From contig NZ_CP114887.1 in NCBI RefSeq assembly GCF_028747805.1, forward strand, positions 2,287,501 to 2,351,500: a DNA stretch of 64,000 nt. Direction: 5' to 3'. Below the pieces are notes generated by a model, which made no database searches, was not told the origin of the DNA, and saw only the letters and a program-made list of their open reading frames with translations. Positions 21,501-32,047 of this stretch are shown here, piece after piece (position 1 is the stretch's first letter; each line of letters opens with the position of its first letter). Source of the stretch: Solibacillus daqui. GTDB taxonomy: Bacteria; Bacillota; Bacilli; Bacillales_A; Planococcaceae. The position numbers and the translations under genes are program-made.

Positions 21501-21584
21501 ATTGCTTTAGAGATTCAGCAGCAGTATATTGAAATCACAAAGAACGTACAATAAGTTCTTGTAAATAGAAGGGTGGAATTCCTT

Positions 21585-22745
21585 ATGTTAACGAAACAAA
21601 CAATCGACACAATCAAAGCAACTGTACCAGTATTAGAAGTACACGGATTAGCGATTACTAAAACATTTTACAAAAACCTATTTAATGACAACCCACAATT
21701 ATTAAACATTTTTAATCACACAAACCAAAAGAAAGACCGTCAACAAACAGCTTTAGCAAACACAGTATACGCAGCTGCAATTCATATTGAAAACTTAGAA
21801 GCAATCGTACCAGCAGTTGTACAAATTGCGCATAAGCACGTAAGTTTAGGTATTTTACCAGAGCATTACCCAATCGTAGGAAAATATTTATTAGCTGCAA
21901 TTAAAGAAGTATTAGGTGACGCAGCAACAGACGAAATAATTGAAGCTTGGGGTCAAGCATACGGCGTAATTGCGGATGTATTCATTTCAGTAGAAGAAGA
22001 TCTATACAAAGCTTCTGAAAATAATGGTGGCTGGCGCTTATTTAAAGACTTCGAAATTGCTAAAATTGTAGAAGAAAGCGATGTTGTTAAATCATTCTAC
22101 TTAAAACCAGCTGATGGTTCAAAATTACCTGCATTCTCAGCAGGTCAATACATTTCAATTCGCGTTCAAGTTCCTGGACAAGAGTATTTAATGAATCGTC
22201 AATACACAGTTACAGAAGGTACTGAAGAATATTTCCGTATTTCTGTTAAACGTGAAAACGATGAAAATCCAAATGGCGTAGTTTCTAATTTCTTGCACGA
22301 TTCGAACGTTGGCACACAAGTACAATTAAGTGCTCCAGCTGGTGTATTCACATTATCGGACAATAATAACCCTGTATTATTTATCGCGGGTGGTGTAGGT
22401 GTTACACCATTACAAAGTATGCTTCAATCAATCGATGATCGCAAAGCTTCGTTCCTTCAATGTGCACGTAGTAAGAATGTTGCAGCATTCACAGAAACAA
22501 TCGAAGAAAAAGTTGACGCATTAGGTGGTATTTACACAGCAGTTTATAGTGATACAGAAGGCTATGTTACAAAGGAGCAAATTGCATCATTACTTGAAGA
22601 CGGTACTGAAGTTTATGTATGTGGTCCAATCGCCTTCATGGAAGCAGTTATTTCAAACTTAGTTGAATTAAATGTTCCTTCAGAAAATATTCATTACGAA
22701 TTCTTTGGCGCTGCCATGGCATTACAAATTCAAACAACTAGATAA
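21585..22745 (+). CDS. hmp: flavohemoprotein, nitric oxide dioxygenase
   Basis: Converts NO and O2 to nitrate using NAD(P)H, protecting against nitrosative stress. 386 aa, the family length. N-terminal globin domain with the conserved Tyr29, Gln53 and proximal His85; an FAD-binding domain with RQYT near residue 205; and an NAD domain with [12 protein letters not shown] and the C-terminal EFFGA. ATG 21585 follows GAAGGGTGG; an in-frame GTG 4 codons earlier overlaps the ribosome site. Divergent from nsrR, which is expected to repress it. Ends in a strong hairpin. Confidence 0.96.
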
Positions 22746-30061: not shown

Positions 30062-30304
30062 GATTCTAAGTCCTTTCAGTTTGTTCAACGTTTCTAAATT
30101 TTCACCTTGTTTAGTATACACGACAATTCATTTCATTGCATTACAAACACAGGTGATAAATAGCATATATGAATTTGTCTTTTCATTGATAATTATGTCG
30201 TTTTGTCACAAATAATAAGTAGTGTTCACTAATTCCAGTAGCTTCCAAATATGATTTAAATTATAATATTTTATATATTATTCAAATGGAGCGTGAAGTT
30301 TTAC

Positions 30305-32047
30305 ATGTCCAACAAAATGAATTACTCCGATTATTTTACAACTGCAGATAATTCCGATATTCAATCAAATGAACGCTTCAAAGAAAAACTCGACTTTTTA
30401 GCTTTAACTCGGGAACGCCGGGAATCTGTTGGTATTTTAAAAGAAATATACATAGAAAATCGCGATTATATTTTAACGAGTTTTTATGATCGTTTGTTAC
30501 AAACAGAAATTTTTCGCACAATTATTTCTGCAAATTCTACCGTTGAACGATTAAAAGTAACCTTTGATAAGCATTTTATGAGCTTATTTAATGATGATCT
30601 CGACATTGATTATGTATTTAAACGTCGCCAAATTGCATATACCCATGCACGAATAGGTGTATTACCAAACTGGATGATCGCTGCTTACACATTAATCAAT
30701 CAATTAATTCGCCCTGCGATTGTAAAAAAACTCTATAAAAATCAAGCGAAAATGACTGATGTATTGCTTGCCTATGAAAGCTTAGTGACGATTGATCAAC
30801 AAATCATAGTAGAAACTTATATCGAAATTCAAGCTAATTCAGTTGTCACAGGACTTGGTGACATTATTTCATATAATACTAAACTTGAATCGATAAAAGA
30901 GCTTGTTCATTTCCAACGTAATCAAAGTTACGAAATTTTAGAAACTGAACGTGCTATGCAGCAACTTGATATCAGTATCGAACAAATTGCATCCACTGTT
31001 AGTGATATTAACGAACAGACTGGTACGCAAATCTCGAAAATGGCAGAGCATCTATCAAAATTACAGCAAGTTTCCGAAATTTTAACGACCGCTGACAAAG
31101 GGCAAATAGCCATTCAACTTGAAATCGAGCAGCTTGTAAAACGTGTTCATAATGTAACTCGTCTAGCTGATACTATTAAAGCATTTGCTGAACAAACTAA
31201 TCTTTTAGCGCTTAGTGCGTCGATTGAAGCAGCACGAGCTGGTGATGCCGGTCAAGGCTTCTCAATTGTTGCTTCAGATGTACGCCGCCTTTCAGATGAT
31301 ATTAAACAATCGATTACAACCATTACCTCTGATATTCAGCAGCTTTTAAAAATCACATTAACTATCCGTTCACTAACGACAAGTTTATCAGAGGATCTAC
31401 ATAAAGGTGTAGGTAACACCGTGCACATTTTTGAAACGCTACGCCAATTAAATGAATCCTTCCATATACAAGGTGAACGTTTAAACGAAATTGTAAAAAA
31501 TACAAAGTCACAGTCAGTAGCGGCAAATACAATTACTGACAGCAACAAAAACGTTACGAAAAATATGGAGTTCAGCCAAACGATTGTACACGAAACCGGC
31601 TTAGCGATTTACCAACTAAGTAAAATGATTGACCATTTTCGTACGAATACAATTGCCAAAAATGCAATCATTAGTCAAGAAGATATTATAGAATTGGCAA
31701 TTACGGATCATTTATTATGGCGCTGGCGCATTTATAACTTAATGCTCGGATTTGAAAAAATGACTGTCGATCAAGTAGAATCACCAAAGCAATCACGTCT
31801 CGGTGAATGGTACTATGGAAAAGGGAAAAGTTTACTTGGGAATGAACCTTCTTATCGTGAATTAGAACAGCCATTCATTCATATTCATGAGCTTGCCAAG
31901 AAAGCCGTACAAGCATTCCATAATAGCGAAGAATCACGCGCTCAGCAATATTTAGAAGAGATTACAAATAATTCACAAATCGTAATTGAAAAACTACGTG
32001 AATTACAACGGATTTTAATCAGCAAGAAACCAAATGTCATAAAATAA
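30305..32047 (+). CDS. globin-coupled chemoreceptor (HemAT-like) with a CZB-like C-terminal domain
   Basis: Soluble heme-based aerotaxis transducer, 580 aa from ATG 30305; a GTG 4 codons upstream is too close to the GGAG. Residues about 25-185 form a protoglobin sensor; the proximal heme His lies in IAYTHARIGVLPNW. Residues about 190-440 are the cytoplasmic MCP coiled coil with the tip [20 protein letters not shown]. The last ~130 residues resemble the zinc-sensing CZB domain: TDHLLWRWR, RLGEWYYGKG, and HIHELAKKAVQAFH. B. subtilis HemAT (432 aa) lacks this tail. The Cys that normally precedes (R)LGxW in CZB is Ser here (about residue 497). No TM segments. Confidence 0.85.
   Translation: MSNKMNYSDYFTTADNSDIQSNERFKEKLDFLALTRERRESVGILKEIYIENRDYILTSFYDRLLQTEIFRTIISANSTVERLKVTFDKHFMSLFNDDLDIDYVFKRRQIAYTHARIGVLPNWMIAAYTLINQLIRPAIVKKLYKNQAKMTDVLLAYESLVTIDQQIIVETYIEIQANSVVTGLGDIISYNTKLESIKELVHFQRNQSYEILETERAMQQLDISIEQIASTVSDINEQTGTQISKMAEHLSKLQQVSEILTTADKGQIAIQLEIEQLVKRVHNVTRLADTIKAFAEQTNLLALSASIEAARAGDAGQGFSIVASDVRRLSDDIKQSITTITSDIQQLLKITLTIRSLTTSLSEDLHKGVGNTVHIFETLRQLNESFHIQGERLNEIVKNTKSQSVAANTITDSNKNVTKNMEFSQTIVHETGLAIYQLSKMIDHFRTNTIAKNAIISQEDIIELAITDHLLWRWRIYNLMLGFEKMTVDQVESPKQSRLGEWYYGKGKSLLGNEPSYRELEQPFIHIHELAKKAVQAFHNSEESRAQQYLEEITNNSQIVIEKLRELQRILISKKPNVIK

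Follow-up and report, generated by a model that had tools for sequence, protein, structure and literature searches.

Our analysis suggests that the globin chemoreceptor encoded in the 64,000-nucleotide stretch of the Solibacillus daqui genome studied here (the window) is a HemAT-type heme receptor descended from a two-sensor ancestor. Its zinc-binding CZB domain would have been disarmed and retained as a structural or allosteric module, with zinc sensing left to a separate receptor in the same genome, L001. We assign this reading a probability of about two in three. The host, a member of the Planococcaceae, is a soil bacterium with a 4.1 Mb genome in a single contig. The initial annotation had described the gene as a globin joined to an MCP rod and a C-terminal CZB-like domain, and had staked the last of these on a profile search. 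All three domains exceed their Pfam cut-offs (Table 1); the CZB profile PF13682 scores 46.0 bits on the full protein and 48.8 bits on the tail alone, with a cut-off of 29.4.

Table 1. Features of the globin-MCP-CZB receptor gene, in window coordinates
Feature	Position	Strand	Basis
Globin-MCP-CZB chemoreceptor gene, 580 aa	30305..32047, stop included	+	ORF and translation, three Pfam domains over cut-off, Solibacillus orthologues
Protoglobin domain, residues 22-174	30368..30826	+	PF11563, 109.9 bits, 1.6e-31, over cut-off
Distal-pocket Tyr61	30485..30487	+	Aligned to Tyr of HemAT FYKNL
Proximal heme His114	30644..30646	+	Aligned to His of IHLRIGLLPKW in HemAT 1or4
MCPsignal domain, residues 270-419	31112..31561	+	PF00015, 81.4 bits, 9.3e-23, over cut-off
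CZB domain, residues 469-535	31709..31909	+	PF13682, 7e-12, predicted fold, Foldseek matches
His469, first zinc-ligand position, kept	31709..31711	+	Aligned to DgcZ H22; invariant in all three groups
Ser497 replacing the zinc-thiolate Cys	31793..31795	+	Aligned to DgcZ C52; Ser/Thr in 50/50 of the clade
Phe524 replacing the second zinc-ligand His	31874..31876	+	Aligned to DgcZ H79; His in 32% of the clade
His526, off-register ligand mimic	31880..31882	+	Aligned to DgcZ H81, not a DgcZ ligand
His528, third His ligand position, kept; Tyr in paralogue L003	31886..31888	+	Aligned to DgcZ H83; clade 61% His, 34% Tyr

The start codon is the ATG at the first position of the gene, with an in-frame GTG at 30293 as a possible alternative start. 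The genes flanking it on either side are both on the minus strand, and three Solibacillus orthologues were found (L012, L013 and L014). A motility sigma-D-type promoter pattern has no match within the window, where promoter-like sites do not exceed chance expectation. About 8 kb upstream lies a flavohemoglobin-like gene (globin and flavin reductase, 21573-22745, plus strand), a second copy of which is found elsewhere in the genome. The genome encodes one CheA-type kinase, three globin receptors with a CZB domain and three HemAT-like globin receptors without one (L286, L287 and L288); its heme-type globin receptors total five. In the window receptor and its orthologues the tip of the MCP hairpin is altered and differs from that of the paralogues ([31 protein letters not shown]; [17 protein letters not shown]), a conserved Asn being replaced by Ser. 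With this altered tip, the kinase coupling of the window receptor may differ.

The globin has its closest PDB sequence match in the HemAT protein of Bacillus subtilis (1or4, 1.1e-13). Like this globin-coupled aerotaxis receptor, the window receptor combines a Protoglobin domain that carries the proximal His and distal Tyr with a soluble MCP rod, which places it among the HemAT-type proteins. In the clade of relatives that keep the heme site, the position of His114 is His in 100% and that of Tyr61 is Tyr in 98% of the members. The window receptor is thus predicted to bind heme and probably oxygen, or another gas. HemAT itself has no CZB tail, whereas the window receptor carries one whose zinc site appears disarmed.

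For the zinc site, the record of Escherichia coli DgcZ, with its ligands H22, C52, H79 and H83, was fetched and aligned to the window protein. The ligands align with H469, S497, F524 and H528, so that two of the four, the Cys and one His, are gone. The initial annotation had placed a Ser near residue 497, where the C-x-L-G-x-W motif has its Cys, and this is correct. It had also counted three His-containing blocks, which does not hold: the HxxxH pair of CZB domains has become FIHIH in the window protein, Phe524 stands at the H79 position, and His526 is easily mistaken for a ligand. The alignment with DgcZ excludes this FIHIH His as the missing ligand. In addition, the conserved His494, three residues ahead of the Cys position, is Pro in the window protein. 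An alignment of relatives with tails shows that no Cys was misplaced: the column is Cys in 131 of 131 receptors with an intact zinc site, which is true by definition of those types, and Ser or Thr in all 50 members of the clade. We therefore do not file the tail, which is homologous to CZB and has two of the 3His/1Cys ligands, as a canonical CZB zinc sensor.

Could the tail still bind metal, either zinc more weakly or another ion, through His469 and His528 together with Ser497 or His526, so that the protein senses both oxygen and a metal? The DgcZ CZB domain with a Cys-to-Ala substitution still held zinc through its three His (PMC6715182), so loss of the Cys alone does not abolish metal binding, and the residues kept in the window tail might retain some affinity for metal. 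No clade member has lost His469, a constancy for which a purely structural role offers no obvious reason; Ser/Thr497 is fixed, and nine clade members have the pattern H-S-H-H, with all three His kept and only the Cys changed. However, the window protein is missing the H79 equivalent in addition to the Cys, and its FIHIH motif is off-register; other clade members are H-S-Y-Q or H-S-Y-Y, and the paralogue L003, having lost the Cys and two His, is left with one of four ligands (H-S-F-Y). A metal-binding tail is thus unlikely in our judgment. The losses favor the suggestion, made in the initial annotation, that the tail may have lost metal binding, and we infer that zinc binding has been lost in the window tail.

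The change at position 497 is shared by 50 Planococcaceae receptors, in which the heme His is always present and further His are often lost. The codons at this position are TCN or ACN; the Kurthia members L078, L079 and L083 have Thr rather than Ser. Such losses might indicate a tail that is decaying and functionless: two ligands are gone, and the window copy and its orthologues lie on a long branch with an altered signalling tip. Yet the reading frames are intact across genera, and several tail positions are fully conserved. For the tail of the window receptor, comparison with the same-species copy, at unsaturated dS, gives a dN/dS of 0.157, and comparisons with congeners, at near-saturated dS, give 0.06-0.08; for the tail of the second heme-only paralogue the values are 0.02-0.09. 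Over all comparisons the tail values are 0.02-0.16, not far from those of the other domains. The tails examined are maintained by purifying selection, and decay is the least probable of the explanations weighed here. Since Ser/Thr is fixed in the clade and the orthologues are under purifying selection, the Cys loss is not a chance event. A selected tail could also have acquired a new input at or close to the former zinc pocket, from a protein partner or a small molecule. The clade has its own fixed tail residues (I466, R473, F483 and G507) together with low dN/dS, as this would predict, but they could be packing changes following metal loss, and no candidate ligand has emerged. We regard a new input as slightly less likely still than a metal-binding tail. 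The reading we prefer remains a zinc domain that was disarmed and kept for a structural or allosteric role.

The predicted structure of the tail bears on this role. The AlphaFold2 model is a helical bundle (pLDDT 86.9), and its top Foldseek match is the middle domain of DosC (4zvc, TM 0.64/0.75, weak E-value), followed by the DgcZ CZB domain (3t9o, TM 0.62/0.71, weak E-value of 0.11). The structure prediction that the initial annotation had called for thus yields a CZB fold. The VIA-align Z of 10-12 is not distinctive for a helical bundle and does not single out CZB, and by sequence the tail matched only designed helical bundles and the like in the PDB. None of the aligned zinc positions in DosC holds a ligand residue, although the alignment is weak at the first His, and the tail scores 22.2 bits with the DosC_2nd profile PF21118, below its cut-off of 31. 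By its top match and its ligand columns, the window tail resembles the middle domains of DosC and BpeGReg: a CZB-like bundle, devoid of zinc ligands, that shares its chain with a heme globin. In those cyclases the domain sits between the globin and the GGDEF output, whereas the window tail follows the MCP rod. Mutation of a His in the middle domain of DosC and BpeGReg abolishes output (PMC5549716). By analogy, we propose that the disarmed bundle serves to couple the globin signal or to tune it. Helicobacter pylori TlpD, Salmonella McpA and E. coli DgcZ have CZB domains homologous to that of the window receptor, in TlpD likewise C-terminal to an MCP rod. These three retain the 3His/1Cys site, whereas the window receptor has lost the Cys and one His and has a heme globin attached.

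To place the receptor among its relatives, CZB loci were gathered from the genus, family, order and class and from named genomes, only those with a globin were kept, and each was typed by its residues at heme position 114 and at the four zinc positions. This yielded 183 typeable receptors: 50 with both sites, 81 with the zinc site alone, 52 with the heme site alone and none lacking both. The receptors with both sites are scattered across many families of Bacilli. Fifty of the 52 heme-only receptors carry Ser/Thr497, all in Planococcaceae; the other two, L178 (H-C-D-H) and L182 (P-C-H-H), are distant, on long branches, and may be alignment-sensitive. The initial annotation's idea that one protein could sense oxygen and zinc is not supported for the window protein; the existence of 50 relatives with both sites intact makes it fit the likely ancestor of the family instead. 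In the zinc-only receptors the heme His is mostly replaced by Leu or Phe, the distal Tyr is lost and a segment of the globin is deleted. L001, the zinc-only copy in the genome of the window, belongs to this type: it shares the globin-MCP-CZB architecture with the window receptor and has the opposite state, with an intact 3His/1Cys site and a globin that lacks the heme His. A model of one such globin, with a pLDDT of 88.5, retains the fold of globin-coupled sensors, at TM values of up to 0.81. Its matches include the N-terminal globin of RsbR, a stressosome protein distantly related to the window receptor; this globin is non-heme, so that a sensory globin fold lacking heme has a precedent.

Among the matches retrieved, 23 Planococcaceae genomes have one heme-only and one zinc-only receptor and five have two and one, respectively; other genomes of the family show only one receptor type. 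Of the further CZB proteins without a recognised globin, 32 keep the Cys and both C-terminal His; the only other one, L086, is a heme-only type in shortened form. Six receptors of a separate, shorter CZB type of about 420-430 residues occur in the same family (L077, L080, L088, L093, L094 and L096), with a DHxxFLR motif and the Cys and His pair intact. In the Aneurinibacillus group, the close relatives L124 and L125 are set apart by a His-to-Tyr change at the heme position, perhaps a recent loss of heme.

When the zinc-ligand columns are left out of the alignment, the tree joins the heme-only clade to both-site receptors from Lysinibacillus odysseyi and from genomes of the Aneurinibacillus type (SH-aLRT 100), and the main zinc-only lineage forms a clade apart from it. 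These separate placements and the both-site neighbours suggest that both specialised lineages derive from two-sensor relatives, not necessarily by one duplication. Two receptors, L115 (judged Lysinibacillus macroides) and L266, nest inside the heme-only clade (support 96/89 in an 11-row set), and an AU test applied post hoc rejects their placement outside it (p 0.0165). They have a full H/C/H/H zinc site and have lost the heme His; within the clade, they alone have an intact zinc site and they alone lack the heme His. Recombination was considered as a simple source of the L115 zinc site and rejected, as each domain of L115, CZB included, best matches the heme-only clade and the AU test points the same way. 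The L115 CZB domain is nearer to those of the H-S-H-H and both-site members than to those of its Lysinibacillus neighbours. The site may represent retention, reversion or partial exchange.

A loss-only reconstruction with a midpoint root gives 6-7 heme losses and 3-8 zinc losses. If losses were independent, the probability of no double loss would be ~0.039 without L115 and ~0.004 with it, in a post hoc test sensitive to the choice of root and to the CZB-profile sampling. It is therefore suggestive that the losses across the 183 receptors affect one sensor or the other and in no case the two together. Reciprocal loss of heme and zinc sites was not found described in the literature searched, which covered few subscription journals. 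More tentatively, and at odds that we put below even, the Bacilli receptors may be a two-sensor family that repeatedly dropped one sensor and never both, in which a disarmed CZB domain is an obligate allosteric partner of the heme globin, with DosC-type cyclases having independently done likewise.

For the window receptor, we propose the following course. The ancestor would have joined a heme globin to a zinc CZB domain in one receptor. In the Planococcaceae lineage the zinc site would then have been disarmed, probably by Cys to Ser/Thr first and by loss of His residues later, an order suggested by the nine members in which only the Cys has changed. The CZB four-helix bundle would have been retained for a structural or allosteric task, holding the globin-driven dimer or tuning it; that Ser497 might hydrogen-bond His469 in place of zinc is a guess. 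Zinc sensing would stay with L001, which kept the zinc site and lost the heme pocket.

Globins are among the domains found combined with CZB, and the zinc Cys has been reported as ~100% conserved (Perera et al., PMC8262984). In the CZB literature this Cys is regarded as practically universal, and zinc is given a central place in function. A selected clade without the zinc Cys, beside relatives that lose heme, provides natural mutants that separate the role of the CZB fold from that of zinc. In the relatives that keep both sites, such as those of Lysinibacillus odysseyi (L063/L186) and Aneurinibacillus (L124/L187), one and the same protein may monitor oxygen together with zinc or redox state.
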